From Theobroma cacao (lineage: Eukaryota; Streptophyta; Magnoliopsida; Malvales; Malvaceae), in the NCBI RefSeq assembly GCF_000208745.1, contig NC_030856.1, positions 11,387,804 through 11,451,803 on the forward strand: a stretch of 64,000 nucleotides of DNA. Direction: 5' to 3'. The notes beneath the pieces were generated by a model. The model made no database searches and was not told the DNA's origin. It saw only the letters and a program-made list of their open reading frames with translations. The translations under genes were made by a program, and so were the position numbers. Positions 2,571 through 63,324 of this stretch are shown piece by piece (within the stretch, counting starts at the first letter, position 1; each line of letters starts with the position of its first letter).

Positions 2571-3850
2571 TGTTGAATCCATATGTTTTTTATAAACAAC
2601 AAAACATTCCTCATTCATTAATATCTAACTTCACTATTTAAGTGTACATGATTAAGTTAATCCCCTTAATAAAATTAGTGTTTAAAGGCAAGATCACATA
2701 ATAGATTGGTTAATTAGTTAGAGTGAGAAAGAATGAAAGGGTTAGTGAAGATAGAATTTTAGTAACTGATTAACAAGAAGCTTTAATTAGTTAAAGCATG
2801 ACAGTGCGCCAGGTTGAAGCATAACAGTTGTGTGCTAATTAGTTAAGGCATGAGGTTAATCGGTTAGAGCATAAGACTTGAAGAACCTTAAAGCGCTAAA
2901 ATTCAAATTCAAAATAACTTTGACCATTGAAAGGAGCCAAAATGGAGAAATTTAAAATTCAAAGAATTTATAACTGATTAGAGCTTGTGTTAATAGGTTA
3001 AGACTGAAAGAAGTGATGTTCCAACTAGTTAAGGGGAGAGTTAATCAGTTAGAGGAAGTCTATTGAAGTAGAAAAACTTGAAGACAGAGATCTTTTAATT
3101 AGTTAGAGTCTTCAGTAATTAGTTAACGTAGAGTACACAGCAGCAAGACAATGCAAGGCAGAGAAACTGTAATCAGTTAGAGTTGCTTGTAACCAGTTAG
3201 TCAATTTAAATTTAAACACTAGAAGATAGAATAACAGTTAGAATGACGTCAGAGTTGTCTTTAATGGCTAGAATTTGTCTTGAACAAAAAAATCTATCTC
3301 TTGAAGTATAAATTAAAGCTCCAATGATGAAAGAAGTGAGATTGAAGCACAAAAGTGCTATGTTGAGTAAAAAGCCAAAAACCTTCACCAAAAACATTTG
3401 TTCTTTCCTATTCTAGAAAAAGTGTTTGAGGTTGCTTGTAATATTTCCAGATTTGTTAAGATTTCTAGTTGTACTTCTTTTTCTTCTTATTCTAGGGAAC
3501 TTGGAGTATGGGAAGCACTCTAGAAGTCATTGTAAGGGATTAGAGCTTGGGTTAGAAGCTCACTTTTTAAAGCTTGGTGGAAGCTATCAATTCCATTGGT
3601 ATAGTGAAGTTGGGTTGAAAATCCTTGATTGGGAGATCAAGGTAGTGGATGTAGGTCAAGGGGACCAAACCACTATAAATACTCTAACATTTTCCACTTC
3701 TCTTTACCTTTCCTTACTTGGTGCTTTTTAATTCTGACGAGTTCTAAACCATCCTTCCTCATGTTGATTAAGAGCTTTACAAGCTGAAAAGTGTAGACTT
3801 TAAAATTTTTAGTGCTATTCACCCCTTCCTGCATTCCATTGGGACCAACA
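2571..3850 (+). mobile_element. diverged copia-type solo LTR inserted in the LINE
   Basis: The stretch begins TGTTGAATCC and ends GGGACCAACA. It shares the layout of the Copia-A LTR: a variant of the AAAACATTCC...GTCTAA start, then GCTTGGTGGAAGC, AATCCTTGATTGGGAGATCA, GTGGATGTAGGTC and GTGCTATTCACCCC near the end. No internal region follows, so it is a solo LTR, 1,280 bases long. The flanks CATGG (2566-2570) and TATAG (3851-3855) differ by two transitions and fit a decayed 5-base duplication, because the LINE reading frame joins across them. Inside, at 2708-3200, are many variants of TTAATTAGTTAGAG and TAACTGATTAG. Confidence 0.75.
2708..3200. repeat. interspersed short motif TTAATYRGTTAGAG inside the solo LTR
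   Basis: About ten loosely spaced copies of a degenerate palindrome-like motif occur (GGTTAATTAGTTAGAG, GTAACTGATTAAC, AGTTAATCAGTTAGAG and similar). It occupies the same part of the LTR as TTAGTCGACTAA does in Copia-A. Confidence 0.6.
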
Positions 3851-4347
3851 TATAGAAGACAAAATGGTTTGGAAAGGCTCGATAAGTGGTAGCTATTTTG
3901 TAAATTGTTTTAATAGAATTGTCTTGACATGTAATAGTGTGAAAGCAAACTACTGGGAGAAGATTGGGATGGGTTTTACACCTCATAAAGTGGAGGTGTT
4001 TGTTTTACTGGTGTTAATGGGTTAGGTGGCCGTAAGGCAGAAATTAGTAAAGAGATGAGCGTTAAGTAGACATTTGGCATTTTGTCTTCTATACAAGAAG
4101 GAACTATAAAGTACTAGCCATCTCTTTTTTACTTGTAGTGAGTCTATGAAACCCCAACCTTTAAGAAAGGTTAAATTTATAACTTAGCTTGGTGAGCATA
4201 TAAAAAAAAATTGATTTCCAAATGATATTTTTGAACATTTACAGTCAAGAAAAGGGTGTTTTAGTTTCCAAATGAGTTTATCTGAAAGTTAGGACATAAA
4301 GAGTGTCAAATGTTTTGGTTTTGGTCTTGAAAACTATATTCTAGAAC

Positions 4348-4498
4348 AAAAGTATCCATACTTGTTTATAAGGTATCAATACTTGAAGCCTAGAAATGCA
4401 TCTTGTGAATGAAGTATCGAGATTGGATGAACAAGTCTTGATACCTTCAAACTCAGATTAAAAGTATCAATACTTACTTCAAAAGTATCGATACCTTC
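4348..4498. repeat. cluster of AAAGTATCGATACTTT-type palindromes
   Basis: Copies include AAAAGTATCCATACTTG, AAGGTATCAATACTTG, AAGTATCGAGATTGG, AAAAGTATCAATACTTA and AAAAGTATCGATACCTTC. The centre is TATCGATA, often decayed to TATCAATA. A second cluster of the same motif lies at 18697-18839. Confidence 0.75.
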
Positions 4499-5389
4499 AA
4501 CGTAGATTGAAAAAAAATAAAGGTAAAATAGACTTTTCTCTAATATTTTAAGCCCTAAAAACTTAAACTTTGTCCCAAATGGTTAAAAAACATTTTCTTT
4601 CTATTTCTTAACCTTTCTTTTCTTTCTTTCCTTTTTTTTTTTCTTTTTCAAACCATCTTCAAGGGATTCAAGCATTTTAAAAGCATATCCAAGTTTAGAT
4701 TTTGATTTCAAAGGCTTCTAGAGGTAAGGTTTCCTCATCTAAAACATCTAAACTTGTGGTTTTGATTTCCATAAACTATGGATCATTGAAATTTGTTTTA
4801 CTTTTTAAAACTTAGGTTTTTGGAGTGCTTTTCGTACTCTCAAGCTCATCAAGGTAAAGTGCTTAAACCCCTAAATAGTTGTAAAACGACACCTATAGTT
4901 AAGTTGGACTTTAGTTGTTGATTTTTTGATTTGAGATTGAAAGGAGAAGTTGGTAAAAGGATTTATGGTTATTGATGAAAGTTATACCTAAAGAACAAAG
5001 TATTAACAATGGATTAATCTTGGATAGGTATTGTTTGAAATGTTGGCTTTTGGAGAAGTCGAGTGTTTGTAGAAAGGTGCTAAAGGAAAAGGCATGCATC
5101 ATCCAAGTGAATGGTTACCGTGTTTTCAAAGTATTTTGTTATATAAATACATAAACATGTTTAAAATAGCATTGTGAATGCTTTTGATGTTTAAAATAGC
5201 TTTGGGAATGTGTTTGATAAAAATAAAAATTTTGTGGATTGAATGATGATTGTCACCATGTTTTGAATATGGTGTTGAAATGCGAATATGTTATGTATAT
5301 ATACTTATATATGTATAAAAATGGTTTTGTGGGGAACAAACCTTTCAATGCTTTTACTCTTCAAAATGTGAATTGAGTTCGAATTGTGG

Positions 5390-5870
5390 ATGATGTTTGA
5401 ACTACATGCCTTAGCATGTTTTGAGAATATAGTGAATGAGATCACATGCTATTAGCATGTTTTGGTATGATGAGTGTTTAGTTTGTAAGCTAGATTATGA
5501 TTTACATGAATTATAATTTGAATCACATAACTTTCGTATGTTTCGAATGGCTATCTTGTGGCTTGAATGTTTAGAATATCATGAGTGCATCATCACCATG
5601 ACTCACATTTTCATAGCATGTTTTGAATATCAACATCATTATGGGTTACATGTCCCTAAAATGTTTTGGTACATGCCATGCCTCGCTTGGATAGGTTACA
5701 TATCCCTAGCATGTTTTGAACCTACTCGCCTCATCACGTTTTGAAACCATGTGCTTTGCCACGTTTTGAAACCACGTGCTTTGCCACGTTTTAAACCTAC
5801 ATGCTTGTCACATTTTGTACATGCATTGCATGTTTTGGATCACGTGTTAGACACATGTTTTTAAAACATC
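5390..5870. repeat. degenerate tandem repeat with core GCATGTTTTGAA
   Basis: Units built on CATGC...(G)CATGTTTTGAA recur many times. The clearest neighbours are two copies of about 25 bases at 5744-5795, each reading CACGTGCTTTGCCACGTTTT with small changes. The copies are irregular in length, so this is an old, drifting array. Confidence 0.6.
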
Positions 5871-6006
5871 ATTAAAGGAGCATTGTTGGCTCTCTTAGTT
5901 TTTGATGATAATAAAACATTCCTATTTCATTTGTGTCTAATATTATTACTTGAGTGTGCAGGATAAAATTGTATGAAAATAAATAATCAATCATTAAAAG
6001 GCACAT

Positions 6007-8960: not shown

Positions 8961-9101
8961 CACATATCAAAGAGCATAGAAATAAGAAAGTCATAATTGA
9001 TCAATAAGACAGAAGCCCCATAGTCAATTAATAAAGAGTTAGTTAGTTAAAATTCAAATTAGAAGAATGGTGGGCTGAAGAGTGTTGAGAAATAGAACCA
9101 A

Positions 9102-9219
9102 CTTAGTCGACCAAGAAGTGGGTTAGTCGACTAAGTGCACACTGCTGGAACTGTTAGAAACTAGGAACAGAAGACAGAGACGACTTAGTCGACTACGATG
9201 TCAGTTAGTCGACTAAGAG
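9102..9219. repeat. TTAGTCGACTAA palindrome cluster, Copia-A 5' LTR
   Basis: Four sites occur: CTTAGTCGACCAAG (9102), GTTAGTCGACTAAG (9122), ACTTAGTCGACTACG (9183) and GTTAGTCGACTAAG (9204). They come in two pairs about 20 bases apart, and the pairs are about 80 bases apart. Confidence 0.85.
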
Positions 9220-9908
9220 AATTTTGCACTAAAAGACTGATTAACGGCTAGAACCAACTCCCAACTGTTTCCAAAGGTCAGAAAACTGTCAAACTGCCAT
9301 CAGAGTTGTTTCTCCAAGTGTAAAAGAGGGTTCCAACGGCTAGAAATGTATTCAAGACTTCCAAGAACATAAAAAGAGCTGAAAGACCAAAAAATACTTG
9401 CTGCTCATTTACTGCACTCAACTTCTATCCTTTGTAATTGTGATCTGCACTTCATTCGTACCACTTAGATAAACCTTGTGATCATAGGTACACTCTTTTT
9501 ACCGCTCTCTTTATATTCTTAGAGTGAGAGAGTCACTCTAAGTGATTAATTCAAGCTAGGATTGCTTGGATGACCATAAGTTTTAACTTAAACTTGAAAA
9601 GTTAGGTGTTGGGTTATAGTTGAGCCCAGGAAAAACTATTGTGAAAAGTTTGGCTGACCCTGGTAAAAGCCATTATATAAGCTTGGTGAAAGCTTGTGAA
9701 TTTCACCAGTTCATAGTGGATTAGTTTTAAAAATCCTTGGTTGGATAATCAAGGTAGTGGATGTAGGTCTTGAACCGAACCACTCTAAATTCCTGCACAT
9801 TGTCTACTCTATTTTTATTTTCATTGCTTTTAAATTAGTTCCTCATCTTGACAAGAGTCAAAAAGTGCTATTCACCCCCCTTTAGCACATTTATTTGAGA
9901 CCAACAAC

Positions 9909-11640: not shown

Positions 11641-11659
11641 AAGAGCTCAACTCAAGAAG

Positions 11660-14728: not shown

Positions 14729-15121
14729 GAAAATTTGTGACTTATACACATAAAACAGAAGGCACTTAGTTGACTAAAGAGAATCTTAGTCAACTAAGAG
14801 CATTCTGTTTCATTAAATAATAAGACTTAGTGAAGTTAAAGGTATAGGGAATAAAATAATGAAAAAAAATGCCATCTGGGAAATAAAATTGAGGAGAAAA
14901 CTGCCCAAACCAAAAATAAAAATTAAGAGGCAGTTTTTGAATTTTGAAAGGGGAGTTACTAATTTTCCTTAAAGAAAAGAAGTCAGATAGTTATCTTTGA
15001 TCAATTAAATCGCTCTCAACCTATTCTCTCTCCATTTTCTCTCTATTGAAACTGACTCCTGAAACTGAAACCCTTACCCTTGAATAAGTCAAAACCCTGT
15101 TTTGAAAATCTTCAAAATCGA

Positions 15122-17377: not shown

Positions 17378-18461
17378 TGTTGGCTCCATTAGTTTTTGAT
17401 TATAATAAAACATTCCCATTTCATTTATGTCTAATATTGTTACTTGAGTGTGCAGGACAAAATTGTATGAAAATAAATAATCAATCATTAAAAAGCACAT
17501 ATCAAAAAGCATAGAAATAAGGAAGTCATAATTGATCGATAAGACAAAATCCCCTTAGTCGATTAATGAAGAGTTAGTTAGCTAAAATTTAAATTGGAAG
17601 AATGGCGGGTTAAAGAGTGTTGAGAAATAGAACCAACTTAGTCGACCAAGAAGTGGGTTAGTTGACTAAGTGCACACTACCAAAACTGCTAGAAACTGGG
17701 AACAGAAGATAGAGATGACTTAGTCGACTAAGATGTCGGTTAGTTGACTAAGAGCATTTTGCCTGCAAGTTTGAATTCTGCACTAAAAGACTGATTAATG
17801 GCTAGAACCAACTCCCAACTGTTTCCAACGGCCAAAAAACTGTCAAACTGCGATCAGAGTTGCTTTTCCAAGTGTAAAAGAGGGTTCCAAAGGCTATAAA
17901 TGTATTCAAGACTTCCAAGAACACAAAAAGAGCTGAAAAACCAGAAAATACTTGCTGCTCATTTTCTGCACTCAACTCCTATCCTTCGTAATTGTCATCT
18001 GTACTTCATATTTACCACTTAGATCAACCTTGTGATCATAGGTACACTCTTTTTACTTCTCTCTTTATTTTTTTAGAGTGAGAAAGTTACTCTAAGTGAT
18101 TAATTCAAGCTAGGATTGCTTGGATGACATAGGTTTTAACTTAGCCTTGAAAAGTTAGGTGTTAGGTTATAGTTGAGCCTTGGAAAAACTATTGTGAAAG
18201 GTTTTGGCTGAGCCTAGCAAAAGCCATTGTATAAGCTTGGTGAAAGCTTGTGAATTTCATCGGTTCATAGTGGATTAGTTTGAAAAATCCTTGGTTGGAT
18301 AATCAAGGTAGTGGATGTAGGTCTTGGACCGAACCACTCTAAATTCCTGCGCATTGTCTACTCTATTTTTATTTTCATTGCTTTTAAATTAGTTTCTCAT
18401 CTTGCCAAGAGTTAAAAAGTGCTATTCACCCCCCTTCTAGCACATTTATTTGGGACCAACA
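17378..18461 (+). repeat. 3' LTR of Copia-A
   Basis: 1,084 bases, TGTTGGCTCC...GACCAACA, uninterrupted. It matches the two halves of the 5' LTR with scattered differences, mostly transitions. It carries TTAGTCGACTAA-type sites at 17554, 17637, 17657, 17717 and 17738, several decayed to TTAGTTGACTAA. Confidence 0.93.
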
Positions 18462-18466
18462 AGCAT

Positions 18467-19472
18467 GTCACATATTGCATAATTCATGGGGCATGGCATG
18501 TGAATATTACAATCTTTTTGTATAATATGGATTGTTTGGATGATGATACATATTTTTTTAAAATGATCTAATGATCTAGTGCTTAAACATGTATTTAAGT
18601 TGAATAATATTTAGAAATTGACTTAAAAAGTCAAAGGTTGAATTTTTTTTTTGGATTTTGCTTAAAAGAAGTTAAAAAATTGGTTATAGGGGGTAAAGGA
18701 TCAATACTTGTTCAACAAAATGCTTTGGGAAAGCATTCTGGATGTATCGATACCTTTACCCAAGTTATCAAGACCTTGAAAGTAGAAAACATTCTACTTG
18801 AAAAGTATCGATACCTTGGATACAGGTATCAATACTTAGTTGCTAACTTGATGACTTCCACTTTATTTGAAGGGTTTTATACTCCATTATGATTGGGTTA
18901 TCTCTCTTAACACTTGAGAGGCTTTGTTGGACTTTGTAGTATCCTAAGGTATAAAATGTATGGATGATTGACATCGGTTTGAGGAATATGCATATTTATT
19001 TTAAATAATATTTGCAAATACTCCTCTATTTCATTTGTTCCCCTTCCCTATTTTTAGTCATTGAGATTTTATGTCACCACATGCAAATTATACTTTGTTT
19101 CATATTAGTAGACCTTGATTGGCATTGTTCGAGAGTTATCCTTCCATCCCTCTTTGCTAGGTGGTCATTGAGGCTCCAATTTGGTTAAAGTTTTTTCACC
19201 ATGTGTAACTATGCTGGTCGAGTCTTCCATTGTCAAATGTTTATTCTTGGTATAGTATTTGGTATTGGTCAATGTATGGCTCTAGATTTTGGTTATGTTA
19301 TAGTTATAAATTTATAATGTTGTTTTTGTACAATCAAATTGGATTGCTTTGAATGTTAAATGTTATCAATTGGATATTTGGCTTAATTAGAAGTATATAT
19401 GAATACATGTATGTGATGATATGCGTCTCTCATGTTTTAATTAATTGGTTTGACAAATGATTCATTTGGAGG
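18467..19472. other. unclassified old repeat DNA, right flank of Copia-A
   Basis: Continues the sequence at 4210-5883 across the Copia-A insertion. It has no coding frame beyond chance. It holds a second cluster of TATCGATA palindromes (18697-18839: GTATCGATACCTTT, AAAAGTATCGATACCTTGG, CAGGTATCAATACTTAG). It ends at the Copia-3 element. Confidence 0.4.
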
Positions 19473-20500
19473 TGTTGAAGTGTTAGCTTAATGAATAAGT
19501 AACAAGAATATTCAAGATGGGGTTGAATTGGACATTAAAAATTCAATAATGTGAGAATCAAGTAACTATAGTTGACTATAAGGTAGTGCTAGTCGATCCT
19601 AGATCACAGAAATAGTTTTCAAAGCTTGTAAAAGAAATTCCGAGGAAGATTTTGATGCATGTGCAAGTCTTTTGCAAAATTACTCAATTAAACACTAGCA
19701 AATGATCATTCTTGAATTACTTAAAACATGTTTTAAATGTAAATCATACAAGAGTATTTGAAGAAAAATGTTTAAAGAAATCATTTTGTCAAGTGATAAA
19801 CAAGTAATTATAATAAAGAAGGACATGATAAAAAAAAATGAAAACTAAGATATGAAGAATATGGATCAAACCACAAGCAATTTATGAAAATGGTTTTCTT
19901 GAAATAAAATGTAGCAATCTAAAACAAAAATAAGAAAGAGGACACAAGTGTTTTATAGAGGGTTGGCTTTCTCAAATGCCTATGTCCTCTCCCTTAGCAA
20001 GCAAAGGAGCTTCAAATCCACTCAAGGAATCATGCTTTTTAATGGGAACAAGCATTAAATTCTTACAATGGGTTTTTCTGAAAGCAACCACAATCCTTAC
20101 AAATGCCTTTTAATGTTAGCAAGCATAATCCTCACAATGCGTTTTAATGGGAACAAGCATAACCCTTACAATGATTTTTAACGGGCTCAACCACAAACTC
20201 ACTAACTTTTCAAGGATGAGTTAAAACCTTTACAAGAATAACAAGAGTGCCTTTATGAGGTGGATTTTTCTAGTTTAGTGCAATGATGGAGGAATGGCTA
20301 ACGATGAGCATAAAGATAGGATATATGTTGGCTCTATTAGTGTTTGATGATAATAAAGCATTCCCACTCATTTATGTCTAACTATGCTACTCAAGTGTGC
20401 AGGATGAAAAATGTATTTTAATAATAAGATAATCACTAAAGTGTAAATATAAAATCCCATAAGAATGGAGAGTTGCAAGTGAGTTGCAAAAATAAAAGCC

Positions 20501-20775
20501 ACTTAGTCAGATAAAGATGGGAGTTAGTTAGCTAAAATTCAAAAATGGAGTGGACTAAGAGTTTAGATTAATCGACTAATCTGAAACAGAATCAACTTAA
20601 TCGACTAAGAAGCATAGTTAGTCGACTAAGAGCTTACTGTTAGAAACTAAGTTTAGAGACATAATCAACTAAATCAATTAAGAAGAATGTTAGTCGACTA
20701 AGAACTCACTGTCTGCAATAGGGGTTAGAAGATAGAATCAACTTAATCGACTAAGAAGCAAGTTAGTCAACTAAG
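20501..20775. repeat. TTAGTCGACTAA palindrome cluster in the copia solo LTR
   Basis: Sites include ATTAATCGACTAAT (about 20568), ACTTAATCGACTAAG (20594 and 20740), AGTTAGTCGACTAAG (20616 and near 20689) and AGTTAGTCAACTAAG (20761). They are again arranged in pairs about 20 bases apart. Confidence 0.85.
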
Positions 20776-21878
20776 AGCTCTCTGTCTGCCACCTCAAACT
20801 TGGATGCTAGAAGACAAATTAACGGCTAGAACTAACTCCAAACTGTTTCCCAACTGTCAGAATCTATCAAACACCCATCAAAGTTGTTTCTTTAAGTATA
20901 AAAACCCTTCCTAATGGCTAAGAACAAGATTTGGTGCTTCCAACATAAAAAAGAGCTCAAATATAGCAAAAATCCTCTGCATACTTTCTGCACTTCACTT
21001 CTATCCTTGCAAAAGATTCAAACACTTCACTTTATACCACTTAGATCAAGTTAGTGATCATAGGTACACCCTTATTTCTCTTCTCCTTGTATACTTAGAG
21101 TGTGCGAGACACTCTAAGGGAATTTATTCAAGTTTGGATTGCTTGATTGTGTGTATAGGTCATAACTTAGCCTAGAAAAGTTAGTTTGGGTTTTGGTTGA
21201 TCCCCGAAAAAACCATTGTATAAGGTTGTGGCTAACCTTGCTAAAAGCCATTGTAAATGTCACAGCCCAAATTCCATGTCAAACCCTGTTCTATAAAATA
21301 ATTACGATGTCATTTACATGCTCAATAGAATGTTTGCATATTTAGGAAGTTCGAGGAATCGTTAAAAGATGATATTGCCCCTAATGGTACCATTAAGTCA
21401 ATTAAGCCTCGAACTAGTTCAAATAGGAATTTTAAGGTGAAATTAAGAGTTTCACAGTTCAGGGATGACTCAAAATGACAATTCGGAGTTCGAGGATCAA
21501 TTTGGAGTCAAACCAAAATTTTCACTATCTAGGGGTAAAATGGTCATTTGCCACTTGAGGACAAAATGGGAATTTTTGAAAAATATTTTTTGGCCCCATT
21601 TTACTTATTGGAGTATGATTTGAGGTTTAGAAGTGAAAAATTTTAATTTTGGTATAATTTGAAGTATAGGGGCGAAATGGTAATTTTACCACCTCGGAGG
21701 CAAATCGGTAAATTTTCACCCCCGACACTTGTCAAGACCAAGGGATTTTATTCATCATGGAAATGGATAAACATGATAAATTTGTGGTGGAGAATTAAAG
21801 AATTAAAAGTCAAATATTTAAAATTTGAACCAATAAGGAAATGTCATGTGTCATGTTTTTATTATTTTATTATTTCTT

Positions 21879-28631: not shown

Positions 28632-29311
28632 TTCTAGGCTATGACCGATGCATGGGCCCAATGGGCATAGCCCAATAAGCCCAAGGTAGCCTGTTTATGA
28701 AATCTCAATCATCATTCCAAACCATCATTTCTCAAACCCATATTGTAATTCTCAACTAAAAAATATTTCAATAACATTTTATAGTAACCCAATACTCACA
28801 ATTGTATTATGCTAACATAGTATCACTCATTTGCCACCTTACAGTGGCTTTAGTAATCAAACATACATATTTGATTTTTTAACATGAATCTTAGTGGTTT
28901 TCATTACTTATACATGTACATAAGCATAAGACTCTTGACCGTTAGCGGAGTGACTCTAGGTGAGGATACAGCTACTGAGATGCCATAGTACCTACCAAGA
29001 AGGCGAGCATATGTGTGCGACTCAATCTAGGTCCCAACTGCCTCCAAAACTGAAAACATGAAGTTTAAAAACATGAGTATAAAACTCAGTGAGTGAACAT
29101 AAGAAGGGAACAAACAATCAATAGGAAGAATTTGGAAATCATGATGCACTTGTTTCAAAAACAATGCAATTGATTTAGTTTCTTACTAAAAACCCCTCAT
29201 TTCAAACTTTGATTTATAACCTCATACTGTTGCAAAACCCAAGATCAATCCATGAAGTTAAATGGGTGAAAATATGGCAAAATCAAGCAAGGTAGCAAGC
29301 ATGGCAGCAAG

Positions 29312-29690
29312 TTTCTCGCTGCAGCGAGATTTAGGCGGCCAAAATAGAAAGTTTATCGCTGCAGCGAGAAATAGTGTCAGTTTGCATATGTTTCAGTTTT
29401 TCTAGCATATCTCCCTCTACAAAAGTTCAATTGATCTGATTTTTGGACCATTAGAAAGATAAGATGCAGGGATATAACTTTTATGTTTATCACTTTTCCC
29501 AGTTCGGACGGGAAAGTAGTCAAAATCATCATCTAATTGAAAGCACTGCATTAGAATTTGAGAGTTTCTCACTGTAGCGAGATTTATTTTTGCTGCAGCG
29601 AGAACCAGGCTAGTGTAACTTTCCTCCAACTAGAGAGTTTCTCGCTGCAGTAAAAATGAACCTCGCTGCAGCGAGAAATAGAGCAACTTA
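29312..29690. repeat. CTCGCTGCAGCGAG palindrome cluster in the F2 solo LTR
   Basis: Six or so sites occur. TTTCTCGCTGCAGCGAGA at 29312 and TTATCGCTGCAGCGAGAAA at 29353 are nearly perfect. Decayed copies lie at about 29563 (TTTCTCACTGTAGCGAGA), 29590, 29637 and 29661. The full 14-base core is a perfect palindrome. Confidence 0.88.
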
Positions 29691-29869
29691 GCTAAAAAGG
29701 GTCTTGTTACATCAAAAGCCATTTTCTTGTTGAAATGAAAAGCAATTTGGGATCAATTAGCAATGCTAACACACAACACAATCACAATTATTTTCATAAA
29801 CTTTCTATAGCACACATATCTATATACGTATATATATATATCCATCATCATGCACACCATCCCATCATC

Positions 29870-30040
29870 ATCAGCTCATGTGCACTCCCTACTCGCACAT
29901 AGCGAGGTCAGCATCAGCTCATGTGCACTCCCTACTCGCACATAGTTGGGTCAGCATCGGCTTATGCGCACTTCAACTCACACATAGCTTGGTCAACATC
30001 AGCTTATGCGCACTTTTACTCGCACATAGCCGGGTCAATA
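29870..30040. repeat. 43-base minisatellite, four copies, in the F2 solo LTR
   Basis: Units start at 29870, 29913, 29956 and 29998, each reading ATCAGCTCATGTGCACTCC-like then CGCACATAG. The other F2 LTRs have related units: several at 57081-57265, and only one or two at 34740-34835. Copy number thus varies between family members. Confidence 0.85.
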
Positions 30041-30795
30041 TCATTACACAATATTATTCATCAATGCGCAACATATATTTATATATATATATACATACAT
30101 ACCAGCATAATATAGGAGCACATGGATTCATCCTTTTGGACATTTCACATTTTAGCAACATCAAAACATTTTATCAAGGGCTTGTTCCTCGGCACACATT
30201 TTTGAAGAAAAGTTGGTTAAAATCATTCAAATGTTTTGTGCAAATACATTCACATTCCCAAAACAAATTTGAAATGCAAGTTCACTCACCGGTCTCGTTG
30301 ATTCTTTAATCGATTCTAACTTCGATTATTGCTTTAAATGGACATGGAGGCCTCGTTGGAACCTATCACACACACACACACAACATCACTACCAACCCAA
30401 TTTGCATAAATACATTTCTAAAAGCTATTTCTTAAATCGAGCTCTACTTGTTATTCCTAACTAGCTTTAAATTACCTTTTGATTAGCTATCTATTGTCTC
30501 TACTCTAGTATCACTAGAAATAAATAAACAAACCTCAATAATAAAACAACTCACAACTCCAATTACTAGCCATTATCAACAACCTAAAATCAATCCTCAT
30601 TCATTACTCACTTTGGTGGATTTGTAGTTGAATTCCTTCTTAAGAATACTCAAGCCATCATGAAAAATCTCTCTTTCTCTCTCTAAACTTCCAATTAGTG
30701 AGAGAAAGTGTTGAAGAAAGACTTTTAAGGGTTTTAAGGTGAGAGAGTGAAAGAGCACAACGGTTCTATGAAAAAGTGCACAAAAGCATAAAAAT

Positions 30796-30796
<1 letters not shown>

Positions 30797-30841
<45 letters not shown>
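30797..30841 (+). repeat. (AG)n microsatellite
   Basis: About 22 uninterrupted AG units, then GGAGGGAGAGAGAG. A shorter CA run is at 30367-30382. The ORFs over it are low-complexity artefacts. Confidence 0.95.
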
Positions 30842-30846
<5 letters not shown>

Positions 30847-33151: not shown

Positions 33152-33519
33152 TGTTAGGAATATTAGCTCAATAATGATGAGGAAAATATCCAAGAGGGGG
33201 GTGAATTGGATTTCTAGAAAAATCTTTTCAATAAATCCAACTTTTAAAGAAGGCAAGCTTGAAGATAAGCTTTCAGATTTGTTTTTACTTTAAAACATAT
33301 AAAAAATGATTTAGAAATCAAATTAATGATCAAACAAGTTGAAAACAAAATTTTCAAAACTCTTCGAGGTGAAATGCACAAGTATGTTAAAGTATAAAAT
33401 AACTTAAGGAGTAATTTATAGAATGAAATAAAGTAGGATAGATTTTCAAGAACTCTCCAAATCAAGTTAAAAAGCATAAGTGTTTCAAAGTAAATCAAAG
33501 GTGATTTGAAGAGTGAGTT

Positions 33520-46337: not shown

Positions 46338-47054
46338 TCATTTTCCTTGGCACACTAAGGAGTTTGAAATTCACTATGAAAACTACTTTTTAAAGAACCT
46401 AGCATAACCTTTACAAACCATTGCTTTTCATGGATTAAGAATAACTTTTACAATCCACTGCCTTTCTTGGATTAAACATAACCTTTGCCTTTTTAAGGAA
46501 CAAGCATAGCCTCACTACTTTTAAAAGATTAAGCAGAAGCTCACTACTATTTAAAGGATCAAGCATAACCTCTTCCTTTCAAGGATCAAGCATAACCTTA
46601 ACCTTTTCAAGGATAAGGCAAAACCTTTACAACACTACCTTTCAAAGGTTAAGGTATAACCTTTCTCTCTTACAAAGTTCAAGCAAATATGCCTCTGGAA
46701 GGTTGATTTTGCTATGTGAGAATATGGAGGAGGAGTTTGGAAGTGCTAAGAAATTATTACAAAAGATATGAGTGAAAGCACTAAGAATTTGAAGCTCAAA
46801 CATAACTCATAAGCTTTTTGGAAGAATATGAGTGGCTTGCTTCAGCTTGGTTTTTCCCTTTTTTTTTCCTTTTCTTTTAATTCCGGACCAAATGATCTTT
46901 TTCTCAACTATTCTTTTGCCCAAAATGTGTTGGAGAAGCCCTTTTTATACTTAGAAAAGGTTTATAACCGTTAAAGATGACTTGATGGAGAAACTAGCTA
47001 TTTTTCTTATCTTTTTTGTGTTTAACGGCTATTGAGAATTGACCTTTTCTTCTT

Positions 47055-47755
47055 AAGAATCGATTTTTCCTTAGTCTAGAGCTTTTGCTTTTTGAGAATC
47101 GATTCTTCATTCCTAAGGTGTTGATTCTTCTTATCAGAGAATCGATTCTTGCTTTTTTAGAAGTTGATTCTTTTTGCCTTACTTAAAGCTTGAAGCTTAT
47201 TGTTTTTCTCGAGAATCAATATTTTCTTCACCGGGTGTCAATTCTTCATCAATTTTGGGTGCCAAAATTTAAATTCAAATTTTGTTTTGGACGTTCCATT
47301 CTTATCCATTCTTCCTAGCTCTTTTTTCCCCAAGTTCCTGATTTTTCTCTTTGAAGCTTCAAGAATTGATATCTCGCTCCTCAAGTGTCGATTCTTGATG
47401 TTCAAACTTATGTTTTTTGCCTTCTTCTCTTGAGAATCAATATCTTCCTTTCTTTGGTGTCGATTTTTCATGTCATCTTTAAAATCTACACCTTTTTGTT
47501 TCATAAGAATTGATATGTTCTTCACTAGGTATCGATTCTTCATGCTATTCTTCAAAAGTGGCATCTTTCTGTCTTCAGTCTTGGATTTGCTCAATTTGCT
47601 TTTTATCTCTCTAGAATCGATATGTGCAACTTGAAGTGTTGATTTTTGATCTTTAGCACTTCTAGGATCGATTGGGAATTTTGAATCTTCAAGATTTCTA
47701 CACTTTCTATCCTTGGATCGATTGTCCTTATTCTAGGATCGATTAGAGCTTTGTT
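47055..47755. repeat. AGAATCGATTCT palindrome cluster in the Copia-3 type LTR
   Basis: More than twelve sites. AGAATCGATTCT is perfect at 47095-47106 and 47138-47149. Others are half-sites or decayed forms (AGAATTGATAT, GTGTCGATTCTTCATG, AGGATCGATTGG). They often come in pairs about 20-25 bases apart. The other two Copia-3 LTRs carry AGGATCGACTA-type sites in the same place. Confidence 0.85.
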
Positions 47756-48081
47756 TCTTCAAGATTCCTTGTCATTTTAGTATGTATCATCGCTATGTCT
47801 TCCTTGTGAGCTATGACTTAGCATCTTCACTTGAATTGAACATGGTGTTGTGGAAATTGATGATCATTGCATGCTTTGATACAAACTTCATATTTGTGAA
47901 CCTATCTTGCAACTTTAACATCTCAAGACTGAATTTTAGATAGATTATAAGCTTGTAAACATGTCAGAATAATGTATGATAGTTAAAAGATTTAAAAACT
48001 TGTCAAGAATCACTCAAGTAATGTTTAAGCAAATTTGATCATTTTGTCATAATTAAAACTATATTCATTTTAAAGCTAACA

Positions 48082-49925
48082 CTAATATTTTGCTCTAATG
48101 CTAAGTGTTAAAACTCAATATGCTAATTGATAGATATATGTAAAATCTCTCCCTTTGGAAAAACAATTAAGCACAAAATCAATTTTGAGGGATAAAATCA
48201 TTTTAAAGCTCATTATATCAAATTGGTAAAACTCTAGCAAAGGCTCCCTATTTTGAAAGGACTTCAAGCATACCAAGCATATTAATTTGTAAAGTTCAAG
48301 CACATTTAACAAAGATATGATCAATTAAAGCTCAAATGAGAAGAGATAATATAAATCTCGATGTGAAGTTAAAGCTAGATGTTGATAGAGAATACCTAAC
48401 ACTTGATACCAATGGTTAGAGTGAACTTGATATTAATTATGTATTTCAACATTCAAGCAAAAATGAGAGACATTAAAGAACATTTAGTATTAGAAAGATG
48501 TTATCGATAATGAATAACACCATTTGGTTGAATTCTCATCACAGCTTGTTGTTGAACATACCAAGTGCTAATGATACCATCTTTGATAAGCACCCCCTTA
48601 ATAAACCTAAAGATCATAAGGTCTATACAAGACCATTTTTTAGAAGAGATCAAGCTATAATAGATGAGCATTTAAGTAGATATTCAATCATGCATCAAAT
48701 ACTCATATTTGAAAGGTAGATCCTAGTCATATTCAAGGTATCATTAGTTATCAACTATCATTCCTAATCATTTTCAAGCATCAATAAGCATTATTTATTT
48801 TTATCAAGCATAATCATCAAGCATCATCAAGCATTATCAACCAAGGAATATTAATCATCTCATAAGAATTCTCCAATTTATATAAGAATGACAATTCATA
48901 AAGAATTTCCACAATAATAGCATATAATCAAATATCAATAAAATATCATTATTAAGCACTATCAATCATCTACTATTCATTTGCAACGAAATCATTTGAT
49001 AAATACTTAGTTTTGCTTTTCAAAAATTTGTACTTGAAACATCTAAGATTTGAGTTGAACATACTTTGTGCAAAATCATGAGCTCAATGTTATTCAATCT
49101 TATTCAATTATGCTCTAAATGATTTATGAAATGGGTAATGAACATAATGAATCATGTTTATGCATGTCAAGGGTTAGTTCTAAATCATGTGTAATTGTGT
49201 ACACAAATGCCCTTATGATCAATCAAGATTAAAAGTAAACATGCACATCTAATGAAAACAAGTTAAAAATATTTCCATTATGCAGCAAACTTGTTCATAA
49301 ATCATTACAGGCTCAAATATGACAAGTATTTCATGCAAGATACTGATTCAAGTAGTCAATTCTTATCATGCTCAAATATAACCCATATAAACTATTCAAG
49401 CAAGTTCTAAAATGTAAATCAAGATTGTTCAAATGATCAAATTATCATAGGCACAAGAAAATTAAAAAGTCAACTTTTTAAGCTCAATTTTCCTTGTTAA
49501 GACTACTAGAATGCAAATGAACAATTATGCTCATATTGCCATTATGTCATCAACATCAAACCATTATGCTTAAATGCTCAAAAATCATTTTTCCTTAAAC
49601 AAATAATATGAAAACAATTTCACAAATCATGAGGAGATTTTATAAAAACAATTTTTGCAGTCAAGCAAACTCAAGAAAATAAGGAAGGTGATGATATATT
49701 CAAAATCAAATATAAATGCATACTTTTGGTTTTATAGGTTCATACTCCTTTTAAGATTATGCAATTTATAACATTTATCACATTTAAATCAATTTTGCAT
49801 AATCAAGATTTGTTAATGAAGCTCAAAGAAGAATTATGCACTCAATAATTAAGCAAGAATGGACAATCAAATTCTCAATTAAGAAAAACAACTATCTTTA
49901 AGAAACCAAGCTAATTCAAAGCAAT
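48082..49925 (-). other. AT-rich interior of Copia-3, no pol recognised
   Basis: Where integrase and RT would be expected there is AT-rich sequence with irregular TCAAGCAT/ATCATCAAGC repeats (about 48770-48850). I recognise no pol motif on either strand. A plus-strand frame at 48498-48719 has no family likeness. Confidence 0.45.
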
Positions 49926-50956: not shown

Positions 50957-52746
50957 TGTTAGAAGTGTTAACTTAATGAATAAGTAACATGAATATTCAA
51001 GAGGGGGTGAATTGGATATTAAAAATTCAGCAATATAAGAATCAAGCAACCATAGTTGACTCTAAAGTCATGCTAGTCCATCCTTTTTATTAGAAAAATT
51101 GTTTTCAAAGCTTGTAAAAGAAATTCCAAAGAAGGATTTGATGCATGTGTAAGTCTTTAGCAAAACTACTTAGTTAAAAACCAGCAAATGATCATTCTTG
51201 AAATACTTAAAACATTTTTTAAATGTAAATCATACAAGATTATCTTAAGAAAAATGTTTAAAGAAATCTTTTTGTCAAGTGATAAACAAGTAATTATCAC
51301 AAAGAAGGACTTCATAAAGAATCAAAACTAATACATGAAGAATATGAATCAAACCACATGTAATTTATGAAAGGGGTTTTCTTGAATTGAAAATGCAACA
51401 ACTAAAGCAAAAATGAGAAAGAAGACACAAGTATCTTATGAAAGTTGGACTTTCTCAAATGTCTATATCTTATTCTTTAGCAAATTAAAGAGTTTCAAAT
51501 CCACTTAAGGAATCATGCTTTTTAACGAGATCAAGCATTAAACCCTTACAATGGCTTTTTTTCAAGAGTCACCATAACCTTTACAAATGCCTTTGAATGA
51601 AAGCAAAGATAACCCTTCTAATGCCTTTGAACGGTAGCAAGCACAACTTTTACAATGGCTTTTAATAGGCTCAACCACAAACCCACACTAACTTTTCAAG
51701 GATGAGTTATAACCTTTACAAGAATAACAAAAGTGCCATTAAGAGGTGGATTTTACTAGTTTAGTGCAATGGAGGAAGAATGACTAACAATGAGTATAAA
51801 GATAGGATATAAAGATTGGACTGAAAGTGCAAAGAAAATTTCAGCTTAAGAAGGCTTGGTTTTTTCCCTTTCACTCTTATAAATTTTGATTCTCAAGAGT
51901 TTGGACTTTTTTTTCTATTTTTCCTCACTTGAAAATGCTCCCAAAGGGTTTTTTATATAGTTGGAAAAGTCATGTAGTCGTTAGAGATGAATTATATAAG
52001 AATCTAGCCTTAAGACATAAGTTTGGAACAAATCTAGCCATTACTGAAGCTTTAGGATCGACTACAAGCCTTCTAAGATGGACTACGTCTTTTAAAATAT
52101 TCAAATTTAGGCTTCAATAGTCAATTATGAACTTCCTCTACTCAATCCACTTATTGAGAGCATGTAACTTTGAAGTTTTGGGCTTGATGATCGATTTCTA
52201 AGCCTTAAAGATTGACTAGGACTCCTTGAAATTGAGATTTCCATGTGTCTATTGTTCAATGATCAACTACTACTTGACGAGGGTCAACTACAACTCTTTA
52301 AAACTTGATTTTTGATTCTTTAATATGCTAGGATCAACTGGTACTTGAGTAGGATCAATTAGGGCTTTCTCTTCTTGAGTTTTCACACCTCTTTTACCAC
52401 CGGATCAACTGGAGCTTTGTTTTCTCAAGATTCCTTGTTATTTTTACACTTGACTTCAATTATATCTTTCTTGAGGTGAAATGTTGAGTTGAGAGTTTGC
52501 TTTTTCACTCGAAACACCTTTATTGTTGTGTAGAATGATTATCTTTAAATGCTTTGAGATAATGTCCATCACTTGTGAACCTATCTTGTAATTTTAACAT
52601 CTCAAATATGAATGTTTAAGGAATGATAAGCACTCATACAACTTAATCATTCAAGCTAGTAGACATTTATAAAGTGAATGTGTGCAAGGTTAATAAATTT
52701 GAATCATTTTGTCATAATCAAAACTATACTAATTTCCAAGCTAACA
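50957..52746 (-). repeat. 5' LTR of Copia-3, uninterrupted
   Basis: 1,790 bases from TGTTAGAAGTGTTAAC to AAGCTAACA. It is the clean reference for the two broken copies at 19473-32769 and 33152-48081. Confidence 0.9.
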
Positions 52747-58802: not shown

Positions 58803-61445
58803 TCAATTCAGCATAGTGTGAATAGTAAAAGTTCTAAAATTCTGCCACATCACTTTTGTTGAGCATTCTTAACATAAGATCTTGGTTTATGTATTATATC
58901 GACTTCCAATCTTTATAAAAAATTCGACAATATCATAATACATTTAATCAAGGGTACTACTTTTGTTGGATCAAAACAATATCATTCTTCATCTTATGAA
59001 GAGAATTCAAATATGCTATTAATTCTGGTCACACCTCAATTAAATTATCTTTAAATCATCAATTATGCATGTTTACTTAACCATCCACAACTCCTCTACC
59101 TTGATCTTTTATCAAACTTTCCCACATTCAAGCATTTCATAATACGTAAGGGTCAAAACACAAATCTCAACTTATACCACCAGGCATTTCAATAAACCAT
59201 GACATCCCACATACTTGCTTATGATCTTAACCAATTTCTTTAATCAATAACCCAACCACTTAAGGTTAAAGTTGCTCAAAATTTTTCCTTTAAAGTTCAT
59301 TTCCTAGTCTTGTCTTGATTACTAATCATCTCTATATTTCCAATGTCATAGCTAATTTGTTCGTCGTTAACCACATACAACATATCTAACTTGAAATTCC
59401 TCAAATCTACTCCACATGTCAGATCTCATGGCCTCATTAGTTTATCAGTTTGAGGATGATATTAGGCATTGATCTTTCCTTAAGTATAGTTTAAAATCGA
59501 GGAATCATTTACTAAGACATTTCCGAAATTAACTTCTTTTAGCCCTTTTTACCTTAGAAAATTAAATCCAAATCATTCATTCTAAATTATGGGCTTTATG
59601 CCAATCAAGGCAGATTTCACACTTTTTCTTACACGAATTCAAATGCACACCTTCACGCATAAGCTATAATCTTTCCCCTAAATCTTCATATATTATAACT
59701 ATATATTGGAGCTATATCAAAACTGATACATCATTTTCCATCGCCCCTTAGGATTTTAAATTCATGTCATACTTCTCTATTTGTGTACTTCATAATAGCC
59801 TCACAATTAAGCTAGTTCAGATGCCCAGCCTCTTAGGCTATATCAAGAACATCAAGTTTGATTACGATATAATAGAACTTTATGAACTCATACTAAAAAT
59901 ATAAACGCTGACCTTTAGGCTAACAGAATTATAATCAACTTATTCACTACCAAGATCACCGATGGATTATCTTAGTCATTACCTAATGTTATAACCACTA
60001 ATAGGATATCATCATCGAATCAAATTATAACCAACTCCATCTGAGTTCATTTTCACCCATATGCAATATATATATATCCATATATATTTTCAAAAATTTC
60101 GACTTCAAGTAGCCTTAAGCATATCAAGCTCAATAAGCCATCTGTAAAACCAAAATAATCGACAATCAAGTTTAGAATCATTTCTTCTTATAGTTGATTA
60201 GATCATGCTCATCATTTGTGGTGAATACACAAAGCTGCTTTCAATATTCCATTCTTATACGAGAGTCAACCACTAATTGGCACCATCCCCAAACATCACT
60301 TGTTTTATAGTCGATTTTCTTAGCCATAATTTATATTCTATTGTCATGCCTCTAAGTCATAGCTCATTACCAAAGTCTTTGCCCGTATAGGATTACTTAA
60401 AATCTTAAATCATCAACTATTTATAAGTGGATCTCTACAATTCCCGTAGCGTATTTCTATTCCTTCACCAAGGGTAGTATTATTTAATCAAAGCATATCA
60501 CCCTCATTGTCTAAACGTTCGTAACATAATGCAACCTTTGCCTACCCTTATCAGGCACTTTACCTTGATAATTCTCAAAATAAATTCAAACCTTGTATGG
60601 GGAAAAGAATGCGCGTTTCACAATTTATGCCTTGTGTCTACAGTATTCGAGACCGTAACTTCATAAGGTTTGCATAATGGTAAGATAATCATTGGTTTGG
60701 ACCAATATTTCTAGGAGTCCTTATATTTGCATCATATCTTTATACTTATGTGACATATCAGTCACGAGCCCCAACTTGACTATTATAGCCATTTGTTCTT
60801 TGAAATTTAATGTTTTCTCAGTGTGAGAGATCTCTCGAATTTATCTCATCAAGGTGTCCACAAGGTGGATGCAAGTCCATAACTTATAGTTCAATGCCTA
60901 AAGCAGTGAACATTATCTCACCGTTGGAGTTCTACGCTATGCCATATTAGACAAAAATATAATCTCATAACTATGACAATGAAATTCTAAGGTTCCGTCT
61001 TTATCTATCAATCATAGCTCTCATTTATGAGCATATACTTATACACTGCTTGATCGTTCACAAGTCACTTATGGCCATCCAAATTCGACCTCTCATGGTA
61101 AGTCGAACTAGTATATTGTTCTTATGTTTTTTGATATACTTCCCAAAACGCTTAAACACATCCTTTAATAAGATTTCGTTGAGGATTTAAACAATCAAAG
61201 GCTTAATCTCAAAGCCATTCATAACTTTAACAATTCAATGTATGCCCGATAACATTTTAGCTCATTGACCCCAATGGGCATTATTTTAAGATCTTCCAAG
61301 GTGTCCTCCTCTTATTTCGAACCGAGCTAAACTAATTTAGTATTTTTGCATTAATTATCCTTAAGCTCTTATGTTTGTTATAACAATATCCTTATTTCAC
61401 CCATCATTCATTTTAATGGCTTTGTTGATGTATATAGAGCCTTTC
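58803..61445 (-). other. non-coding interior of the minus F2 element
   Basis: No protein-like frame found. Long parts match the interiors of the two F1 elements (59040-59130, 59425-59690 and 60690-61130). Confidence 0.7.
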
Positions 61446-63324
61446 TGTCAAGCCTGACCTTATAAAGTACTTGCCAGGTCCTTCGTGTGATTGACAATAT
61501 GCTTGCATACTTAAAAAGTTCAAAAAATTGTCAAAAGTCGATATTGTACCAAATGGTACTATTAAGTTGAATTAAGCTTCGAACTAGTCCAAATAGAGAT
61601 TTTAAGATGAAATTGAGAATTTTAAATTCCCAGAATGACTTAAAATGGTGATTCAGAGTTCGAGGACAGGTTCGGAGTCAAATTGGAATTTTCATGATCC
61701 GGGGGTAAAATAGTCATTTTGCAACCCGAGGTTAAAATTGGAGTGTTGGATGAAATTTTTGACTAAGATTGATCATTTGGAACATAATTTGAGTTTGAGA
61801 AGTGAAAAATTTTAATTTTGGCATTTTTTTAGCATAAAGGGCAAAATAATTATTTTGCCACCCCAGGAGCAAAATTGTAATTTTACACCACCCAACACTT
61901 GTCCAGCACATAATATTTACCCAATATTATCATGGATAATTGAAAGAATTTATATGGTGGAGAGAGAAAGCTTAATAGTTAAGAAATTAAAAATGGACCA
62001 ATGGTAAGGTGACACATGGTAAATTTTTGTCCATTAATTATTTAGCTTAAAAATCAACACAAATCAGCCCATTTTCTCTTCATTATGGCCGGCCATAGCA
62101 AGAACAAAGAGAGGAAAGGAAAGAACACAAACCCTAGGTGGGAAAATTGAAGAAAAAGTGTGGGATTTCAAGTAATCAAGCAATCAAAGGTAAAATTTCT
62201 TGATTTTGACTTGTGATCTACCTTTCCCATGCATCCTTTTTCATTTTCCATGGTTGAGAATCAAGTTTTCATGATGAAACCTTGCTGGCCGAACACCTAG
62301 GAGAGAGAATTTGATGATGTTTTGGTTTGATTTTAAGATATTCTAGTGTTTTTAGTTAGTTAGTGATGTGTAGCAAGAAAAGCCAACAAGAAAAATTCAT
62401 TTTCTCCCATTACCCATCATTGGCCGAATTTTCTAGGGAGGATATTGAGGCTGAAATTGATGATATTTCATGATATTTTGGTTGTATTTAATGATTGGTG
62501 AGTCTAGAAATTTAATGAGAAATTTTGGCATGAAAATCTGAATTTTTACCTAATGTATAGACATGTGCAATTTATGGTTCGAACTGATAAATTGAATCAT
62601 ATTCACAGTCATTGACGTATTTTAAGTATAATTGGAGTGTAGAAAGTGAAAGAAATTGAATTGGAGTTAAATTGGAGGTTTTAGCCAATTACACCGAGAA
62701 TAGTACGAATTAGGTCGAATATCGTATTTAAATGGCTATTCGGACATTTTGCATCACATTTCATGCATTCATATAGATTTATAGAGCCTGAAATAGTTTA
62801 TTATAAATTGACACAATTTATTGAAATTCATGTCACGTATGATGTATAGGTGGTGAGCCCTCTAACAAAGGTAAAGAGATTGTGTTCGAAGACCGAGAAT
62901 AAGAGTATATCGAACTCCTAATATTGTGAGTAACCTTACTATCATCTTAATTATCTAAAGTAGTGTTTATCCGATTTTGTGATTTTATGAAAAATGAGTT
63001 AACTGGTGAATCTTTGTGTTTTGTAACCAAAATGTATTTAAATAAAATGATTTTATAAATTGTCTTGAAATTGAATGATGGTTTGAAAATAGAGTAATTG
63101 GAGACTGTTTTCATGTGTTGTAAATTCATGATTTGAATCAAATGGCTTATGACAATATTTGCATGAATGGTTGAATTGGTATTTGTGTTGAAATGTATAA
63201 ACTGTTTTTTGCCTTGAAAGGTTGTGAATTACAGTAATTGCCATGTCATGCTATTGCAAATTTTATTGAATTGGTAGATTATATATTAATTAATCACTGC
63301 AGTAGGGGGTTTCTGTGGACCAGC
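61446..63324 (+). mobile_element. F1 LTR (plus), cut by another F1 LTR
   Basis: TGTCAAGCCTGACC at 61446 matches the F1 LTR start and continues through ATGGCCGGCCAT (62085-62096) to CTGTGGACCAGC at 63324, where the match breaks. It includes the perfect 20-base palindrome GGCAAAATAATTATTTTGCC at 61840-61859. Left flank is CTTTC. Confidence 0.88.

Follow-up and report, generated by a model that had tools for sequence, protein, structure and literature searches.

Palindrome arrays with helix-turn spacing in copia and gypsy-type LTRs of Theobroma cacao

Results

The window analyzed here, a 64,000-nucleotide stretch of Theobroma cacao contig NC_030856.1, holds nested LTR retrotransposons whose LTRs carry repeated short palindromes. 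Arrays were assessed by a local array score that allows at most two mismatches within 250 bp and is set against dinucleotide shuffles; 17 of 20 regions were scored. Element A, on the plus strand, is a Sirevirus (Ty1/copia) by its tested features: copia gag and integrase domains (PF14223, E 2.1e-25; PF00665, E 6.9e-13; PF25597, E 2.9e-25), a 5-bp TSD AGCAT at 5879-5883 and 18462-18466, a PBS junction CAACA-ACTGG-TATCAGAGC at 9902-9920 that is one base from the published CA/ATTGG-TATCAGAGC, a PPT AGGAGGAG-AT/TG where the LTR begins at 17378, flanked by inverted-repeat arms judged by eye, the tract itself being one base from AGGGGGAG, and a poly-C integrase signal CTATTCACCCCCC at 18422-18434, close to the LTR end. 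Its 5' LTR is interrupted by an E-type LTR (6007-8960) and is found as a first piece at 5884..6006, beginning TGTTGGCTC (5855-6006 matches 17348-17500 at 89%), and a second at 8961..9906 (90% to 17496-18462); the 3' LTR spans 17378..18461. Both LTRs carry arrays of TTAGTCGACTAA, with four units at steps of 20/62/20 at 9103..9216 (score 10, reached by 0/100 shuffles) and five units at 17555..17751 (score 11, 0/100), the latter at LTR position 178-374 and followed by the TATA match TATAAATG at 518. A pair of 1-mismatch units 20 bp apart (14766/14786; 14766..14797) lies between pol and the env-like region; it supplied the top-scoring word for the internal region 9908-17347, whose own score is non-significant (16/40).

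Two related Sirevirus-type LTRs lie on the same strand: A3 (20326..21255), with an array at 20568-20774 (score 14, 0/100), and A' (2641..3850, the 5' limit being approximate), with TTAACTAGTTAA-like units at steps of about 20-21 and 51-54 (4/100). Exact copies of TTAGTCGACTAA stand at 9123, 9205, 17720, 20618 and 20690, and the positions given for it by an earlier, sequence-only reading of the window (9102, 17637, 20594) turn out to be 1-mismatch copies at 9103, 17638 and 20597. A LTRs hold 4-6 box copies in the window, 8 in the copies L007, L008, L013, L016 and L021, and 10 in L011, the RM-box criterion being at least 8.

On the minus strand, the B LTR (46341..48094; score 8, 0/100) carries one array of AGAATCGATTCT at 47056-47149, exact at the 47095 and 47138 already listed for it, and another of ATCGATT at about 47528-47750, with TATAAAAA downstream. 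Near-palindromic AGGATCGACTA units occur in B2 (50957..52746, minus strand) at about 52054-52411, with steps of 21, 50 and 51, and AGGATCGACTA units recur in B3 (31709..32769, minus strand) at about 31960-32320; B3 has a PPT AGGAGAG-AT/TG and an inverted repeat just outside, adjoining 32769. B appears to be Sirevirus-type, its link to B3 being LTR similarity alone, with no coding domain tied to either. The five motif types had been presented as unrelated; TTAGTCGACTAA and AGAATCGATTCT both sit in LTRs of Sirevirus type, an assignment based for A on the features tested and for B on that similarity to B3.

The C LTR, gypsy-type and on the plus strand, occupies 4147..5883, with an array of AGTATCGATACT at 4351-4495 (steps 21/41/50/21; score 8, 0/100), and resumes beyond the nested A element at 18467..19472, with a second array at 18697-18836 (score 5, 0/100). 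A perfect AAAGTATCGATACTTT, named earlier as its motif, was not found in the window, where the 10-bp core GTATCGATAC stands at 4485, 18744 and 18805 among decayed neighbours. Its classification draws on the window together with 200 kb of flanking DNA (264 kb), in which one copy (L026, at 81297 in 264-kb coordinates) sits downstream of a PPT and a gypsy integrase tail, with PF24626 SH3_Tf2-1 (E 9.1e-21) upstream of the PPT and TGTGAGACCCC. A non-LTR reading, raised by a LINE-like junction in three copies, was set aside because of this copy with its PPT and gypsy pol tail. The C motif (GTATCGATAC, AAGTATCGATACTT) is not private to one family, as had been proposed: AAGTATCGATACTT is present in gypsy-type LTRs and in a Sirevirus-like group resembling the B LTR, and comparison of motif-masked flanks showed no link between the two.

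Motif D, CTCGCTGCAGCGAG, forms arrays in D1 (28632..31440, minus strand, orientation taken from where the PBS lies in related copies) at about 29314-29674, exact at 29315 and 29662, and in D2 (33497..36047, plus strand) at 35006-35123 (score 6, 0/100); the site near 35002, also put forward as a copy, carries a mismatch. A D1-related LTR (70% over 573 bp) is followed by a tRNA-Met PBS and by PF03732 (E 2.7e-14) and PF08284 (E 4.1e-12) of gypsy gag/protease, which suggests that D is gypsy-type by way of this one LTR; the LTR itself has no D array, just one remnant by eye, and the flanks of D copies that were tried tied no gypsy coding region to a D copy. The proposal that palindromes occupy the same part of each LTR holds for the Sirevirus-type A and B, where the array lies upstream of each LTR's single TATA match, but is not supported for the gypsy-type C and D, where no TATA box clearly follows the arrays.

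Motif E, the spaced quasi-palindrome GGCAAAAT-N4-ATTTTGCC, belongs to a gypsy-type LTR of which 61445..63324 (plus strand) is a part. It is exact at 61840 (61840-61859), where it had been reported, and at 63582 (63582-63601, beyond that block), and has 34 copies against 0 of the reversed control in 264 kb. It had been counted as part of the same design and was rejected from the phased set: helical phase is absent from its steps of 28, 37, 99, 135-137, 148 and 165 bp, and it forms no arrays. E is a separate, unphased feature.

The palindromes are real, in that their clustering exceeds chance. An unbiased scan of 3648 palindromic 12-mers over the 264 kb, whose flank was unseen by the sequence-only reading, gave 24 clusters against 6 for mirror-symmetric control words and, at a score of at least 8, 16 against 0; all 16 are built from four motif families that the reading had named, and its claim of clustered, often paired palindromes in copia and gypsy LTRs is borne out. 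Genome-wide, three of the motifs count 2991, 2244 and 183 against 27, 0 and 0 for reversed controls. The shuffle comparison that had been called for upholds the claim in nine regions (A1, A2, A3, C1, C2, B, D1, D2 and F0, each 0/100, with a top-scoring word in D1 and F0 that differs from the motifs first named), with A' and E1 (4/100 each), E2 (3/100) and E3 (1/100) following; it fails to do so in F1 (24/100), in B3 and B2 for perfect palindromes (68/100 and 91/100) and in the A internal region. Plain palindrome counts lacking the local window (A1 1/60, A2 and A3 0/60, B 5/60, D2 5/60, C2 6/60, C1 7/60) were dropped as a measure, being too weak for B, C and D. Symmetric unit cores measure 12 bp in A, 14 bp in C and about 16-18 bp in D.

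A spacing check, likewise called for earlier, uncovered a feature that had gone unnoticed. Units are mostly 20-22, 30, 39-41, 50-53, 61-63 or 71-74 bp apart, and within a 7-16 bp range the best period is 10.1-10.5 bp, close to the helical repeat of DNA, in eight of nine motif sets; those eight form arrays and E none. In a phase test of unit-unit distances at a 10.3-bp period, using distinct spacing vectors only and random placement as reference, scores were 0.67 for A, 0.68 for C, 0.56 for D and 0.27 for the Sirevirus-like L065 group (0/2000 each), 0.51 for A' (7/2000), 0.75 for B2 (0/2000) and 0.59 for B3 (1/2000), the words of these last two having surfaced through a filter that requires phased steps, and 0.56 for B (17/2000) with a shorter word, AGAATCGATTCT itself peaking at 13.8 bp (7 units). 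The phase is absent from 97 other tandem-repeat periods within the same 264 kb (mean cosine -0.04), and other local 12-mer repeats, with 165 steps, give 0.14 at 10.3 bp and a weak peak of 0.18 at 10.1 bp, for which degraded arrays and a 50-bp satellite are partly responsible. Eleven basic steps, chosen by us with rare classes and sums omitted (51, as 21+30, is in this set and out of one of nine; 73, as 20+53, is omitted), have a mean cosine of 0.83 at 10.3 bp (p 1.5e-5); a conservative version pooling C and D as a single origin (n=6) gives p about 0.001, and taking all 33 step classes lowers the mean cosine to 0.25-0.34 (p 0.001-0.012).

Pair counts show the same steps. With distances of 13-43 bp allowed, exact A pairs number 224 genome-wide against 0 for the control, and among the matches listed all 50 pairs fall at 20 bp (48) or 21 bp (2) with 22 different spacer sequences; exact D pairs number 414 against 0, with all 50 of the matches listed at 20-22 (26), 30 (5), 39-40 (18) and 34 bp (1), the 39-40 step falling 1-2 bp below four turns. 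A, A', B2 and B3, all Sirevirus-type, have a common 20-21/50-54 layout. Among related Sirevirus LTRs the letters change but the spacing persists; the regularity is therefore inherited in part, and the arrays lack statistical independence. Because copies and repeat units share descent, any p-value computed as if vectors or steps were independent is too favourable.

Discussion

Helical spacing is the strongest mechanistic clue in these data, and what is new is a geometry in which letters differ by family and spacing follows helix turns. From palindromy, clustering, genome enrichment, spacing and, in A and B, position relative to TATA, all seen directly, we infer with moderate confidence that the arrays consist of putative sites for a homodimeric protein, set out in helically phased rows on one DNA face and bound cooperatively. 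Each palindrome would take one dimer of a DNA-binding protein, with some two turns (20-22 bp) between neighbouring dimers and more distant units near whole turns (about 30, 40, 51, 61 and 72 bp); whole-turn spacing would align the bound proteins on one face and make cooperative binding possible. The arrays probably act as an LTR enhancer: upstream of the TATA box in Sirevirus LTRs they would have the role of an enhancer or of an upstream activating array, and a second palindrome pair precedes the env-like region. Growth may have proceeded by duplication of pair-plus-spacer units (73 bp in A), and letters may have been rewritten in each family in following different factors or in escaping sequence-specific silencing, with the spacing kept.

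The parallel design is not explained by ancestry of letters alone, as the sequence-only reading had held, and we regard descent without function as unlikely. One old array module would have spread through LTR ancestry and inter-family recombination, its steps inherited from a few ancestral duplications while the letters drifted. The common layout of the Sirevirus-type A, A', B2 and B3 fits this, as do the C motif in a B-like Sirevirus-type group and the unit mismatches, which are mostly one-sided and, in A and C, most frequent at the central CpG; yet drift should sooner break palindromes than create new ones, gypsy-type D has the 21 and roughly 51 bp steps with a different core, differences near 10 bp between several steps (53 vs. 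63; 21, 30, 40, 51) are no prediction of drift, and the masked flanks of gypsy-type C and Sirevirus-like C-motif LTRs gave no link. We give still less credence to an RNA-level account, proposed for maize Sireviruses, in which adjacent self-complementary units pair in the transcript, the dsRNA is diced and the arrays are a host recognition mark. Small RNAs are reported, in the excerpted text of PMC5311732 and PMC10760457, to map on maize Sirevirus palindromes. Folding z-scores here reach -6.9 and -8.4 in D, -5.1 and -5.8 in C, -6.3, -3.6 and -1.3 in A, -3.0 in B and -2.0 in E, against -1.4 and -0.9 in two control regions, but any repeated palindrome yields strong folding, hairpins need no 10-bp phasing, and no compensatory arm change within units beyond column composition, the sign of hairpin selection, was found. 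Rotational positioning of a nucleosome by the arrays is highly improbable: half a core particle spans 73 bp and the period on nucleosomes is 10.2 bp, matching the best period of C and D and the 73-bp repeat of A with its many 146-bp distances, but A is better fitted by 10.4, and positioning requires phased dinucleotides, not 12-18 bp dyads.

Returning to phased dimer sites, a further step, which is speculative and which we doubt more than believe, is that copia and gypsy elements of one genome reached or exchanged a single helical ruler for homodimer sites; selection would act on the spacing and leave the letters free, since each family would track its own fast-evolving factor, possibly a VANC-like element-encoded anti-silencing protein. 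If this is true, plant LTR retrotransposons would possess a general cis-regulatory grammar that has gone unrecognised. A helical spacing rule that extends to gypsy-type LTRs and persists as letters change predicts directly that half-turn insertions abolish function, separates DNA-level from RNA-level explanations, and would let further families be found via spacing rather than sequence.

Sirevirus LTR palindromes themselves have been in print since 2010. According to the excerpted sections of Bousios et al. 2010 (PMC2829016), RM boxes are family-specific palindromes that cluster upstream of TATA within the LTR's upper half and have additional copies ahead of env; the A cluster upstream of TATA and the extra pair before its env-like region are alike, and the Tnd-1 box ACAATCGATTGT is close to motif B, another box, of a Vitis element, being CGGTCGACCG. 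Twelve of the 13 published boxes have a CGG-CCG core, Tnd-1 being the exception, whereas that core is absent here, the cores being GTCGAC in A and ATCGAT in B. Among the copia elements examined there, RM boxes are reported only from Sireviruses, whereas C and D lie in gypsy-type LTRs; the same sections hold no discussion of inter-box spacing that we found. Among the titles and abstract openings of the literature matches listed, none reports gypsy palindrome arrays, and PMC8282616 and PMC6911290, to judge from their excerpts, concern LTR ends and insertion sites. The VANC target arrays of VANDAL elements (Hosaka et al. 2017, PMC5735166) are likewise built of short motifs specific to each family, which lie in noncoding tandem repeats and co-change between related elements; VANDAL elements are, by contrast, DNA transposons with a known binding protein, and "palindrom" does not occur in that paper's main text. 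Maize Sirevirus palindromes (Bousios et al. 2016, as excerpted in PMC5311732 and PMC10760457) form fast-evolving clusters in the cis region with strong predicted secondary structure, and resemble the cacao arrays in their LTR clustering while differing in host and motif; unlike the small-RNA reading given to them, the phasing of the cacao arrays favours DNA binding.

Palindrome Clusters Recur in LTRs beyond Chance

Nested LTR retrotransposons fill the window (G000:C7:11387804-11451803), and the palindromes listed by an earlier, sequence-only reading are present there, albeit at slightly different coordinates and, for AAAGTATCGATACTTT, only as decayed copies surrounding a perfect 10-bp core. 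When local clustering was scored against 100 shuffles per region (17 of 20 regions scored), the clusters proposed by that reading exceeded chance in several regions but were borderline or null in others. Here letters denote the palindrome families and their LTRs: A1, A2, A3, B, C1, C2 and D2 scored above 100/100 shuffles with the listed motif or its core, as did D1 and F0 with other words; A' was borderline (4/100 shuffles reaching its score), as were E1, E2 and E3 (4, 3 and 1 of 100), and local clusters in F1, B2, B3 and the internal region of element A were not significant. Palindrome counts taken without a local window gave a weaker signal than the local cluster score.

We further joined the window to a contiguous 200 kb flank, unseen in the earlier reading, and scanned the resulting 264 kb for all palindromic 12-mers with at least four G/C, which yielded 24 clusters versus 6 for mirror-symmetric control words, and 16 versus 0 at scores of at least 8. 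All 16 strongest clusters use family words: TTAGTCGACTAA (A), TCGCTGCAGCGA (D), AGTATCGATACT or GGTATCGATACC (C), and AGAATCGATTCT (B). Across the genome (324.85 Mb, 431 contigs), TTAGTCGACTAA occurs 2991 times versus 27 for its reversed word, CTCGCTGCAGCGAG 2244 versus 0, and AAGTATCGATACTT 183 versus 0.

Most Palindrome Units Lie Near Whole Helical Turns Apart

Neighboring units lie mainly 20 and 53, but also 63, 73 and 82 bp apart in A; mainly 21, 29-30, 40-41, 50-51, 61 and 71-72 bp in C; and mainly 21-22, 30, 39-40, 49-52, 60 and 72 bp in D; each family also has a smaller share of other steps. When distances between units are analyzed by periodogram, the peak lies at 10.4 bp for A and 10.2 bp for both C and D; for B, with its 12-bp word and 7 units only, it lies at 13.8 bp. 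In a phase test of nine motif sets (duplicate spacing vectors removed, 2000 random placements as null, 7-16 bp scanned), eight form arrays of at least three units with best periods of 10.1-10.5 bp, each matched by at most 17 of the 2000 randomizations, and the ninth, E, forms no array of three or more. The Sirevirus-type B2, B3 and A' LTRs of the window keep a 20-21/50-54 layout despite quite different letters. A genome-wide search for exact A pairs at distances of 13-43 bp gives 224 versus 0 in the control, and among the 50 listed all are spaced by 20 or 21 bp, with 22 different spacers. Exact D pairs number 414 versus 0; among the 50 listed, 26 are spaced by 20-22 bp, 5 by 30, 18 by 39-40 (1-2 bp less than four turns) and 1 by 34; 37 of the 50 fall in phase, within 1.5 bp of whole turns.

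Other repeats provide a baseline: in the 264 kb, the periods of 97 other tandem repeats give a mean cosine of -0.04 at 10.3 bp, and for 165 steps drawn from the remaining local 12-mer repeats the value is 0.14; these steps peak weakly at 10.1 bp (0.18), a rise to which degraded arrays and a 50-bp satellite contribute. Descent is common to copies and to steps, so p-values that treat them as independent are too favorable. With basic steps, which we selected ourselves leaving out rare classes and sums, as the statistical unit, p = 1.5e-5 (11 steps) or 1.4e-4 (9 steps) at 10.3 bp, about 0.001 when C and D count as a single origin, and about 0.0009 for the 11-step and 9-step sets at 10.5 bp; all 33 step classes give p = 0.001-0.012. 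The B2 and B3 words came to attention by way of a filter favoring phased steps. E is a counterexample to the phasing rule, since its units are enriched (34 versus 0 of the reversed word in 264 kb) but unphased.

The Arrays Belong to Two Superfamilies

Element A is a Sirevirus by the features tested: copia gag and integrase domains, a PBS, an AT/TG attachment site with inverted repeat, a poly-C signal, a palindrome array upstream of its LTR's one TATA match, and a 20-bp-spaced palindrome pair ahead of the env-like region. That region (window 15243-15680) has a weak PF20167 (Transposase_32) match under the curated cut-off. The A' and A3 LTRs are similar to A. We treat B, B2 and B3 as Sirevirus-type on LTR features: B3 has a PPT, an AT/TG site and an inverted repeat, and B and B2 are similar to it. 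An E-type LTR (start TGTCACGACCCGG) is inserted in, and splits, the 5' LTR of element A at 6007-8960; E-type LTRs and window 61445-63900 hold strongly enriched, unphased GGCAAAAT-N4-ATTTTGCC quasi-palindromes with up to three mismatches.

C is gypsy-type from one copy: its start, TGTGAGACCCC, comes directly behind a PPT and a reading frame that carries PF24626. D is gypsy-type via one related LTR (70% over 573 bp), itself without the D array, downstream of which lie a PBS for tRNA-Met and reading frames carrying PF03732 and PF08284. Three C LTR copies have an upstream junction in common (at window 3851-4146 and in stretches L030 and L040), which suggests that a composite was copied; the fragment at this junction looks, by eye, like a LINE reverse transcriptase at its zinc-binding end. 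The D1 LTR also carries a 42-43 bp tandem repeat (TCAGCATCAGCTCATGCGCACTCC..., 29865-30043) with its own CAGCTG dyad, distinct from the D array, and stretch L041 holds, from about 5466, an apparently satellite array of 50-51 bp period (CTACCACTTTAAAATCAATTTGAAAAATAAA...).

The five unrelated LTR types first proposed thus reduce to two superfamilies, A and the B-type LTRs being Sirevirus-type and C and D gypsy-type. Nor are the motifs private to each family, as had been supposed: when 20 genome stretches and six local ones bearing AAGTATCGATACTT were grouped by their flanks with the motif masked, four groups and six singletons emerged, and one group (L065, L073, L077 and L079) resembles the B LTR, L065 at 64% over 272 bp (E 7e-24) and the others by shorter matches.

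Discussion

Cooperative homodimers binding on one face of DNA need dyad-symmetric sites at whole-turn spacing, and the arrays, whose spacing mostly matches, are candidate sites for such proteins. RNA hairpins, as an alternative, do not require whole-turn spacing; most arrays are predicted to fold strongly as RNA, and compensatory changes between palindrome arms were absent within families. Unit mismatches are instead mostly one-sided and, in A and C, commonest at the central CpG, a pattern that fits decaying and presumably methylated copies. The A and B arrays lie about 100-340 bp upstream of a TATA match, which is an enhancer position, and may act as enhancers.

Thirteen palindromic boxes upstream of TATA have been described in Sireviruses, of which Tnd-1 ACAATCGATTGT is the sole one without a CGG-CCG core, and among the copia elements surveyed only Sireviruses carry them (PMC2829016); the available portion of that paper treats neither box-to-box spacing nor boxes in gypsy LTRs. 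In what is accessible of later accounts, maize Sirevirus palindromes are linked to small RNAs (PMC5311732, PMC10760457) and VANC target arrays are described (PMC5735166, PMC10398659). Among the titles and abstract openings listed, mostly outside the subscription literature, none pointed to gypsy LTRs with phased palindrome arrays. The Sirevirus-type arrays presented here are further members of an already known kind of box; what is new relative to the known boxes is that such arrays also occur in LTRs of gypsy type and that their units follow a helical spacing rule.
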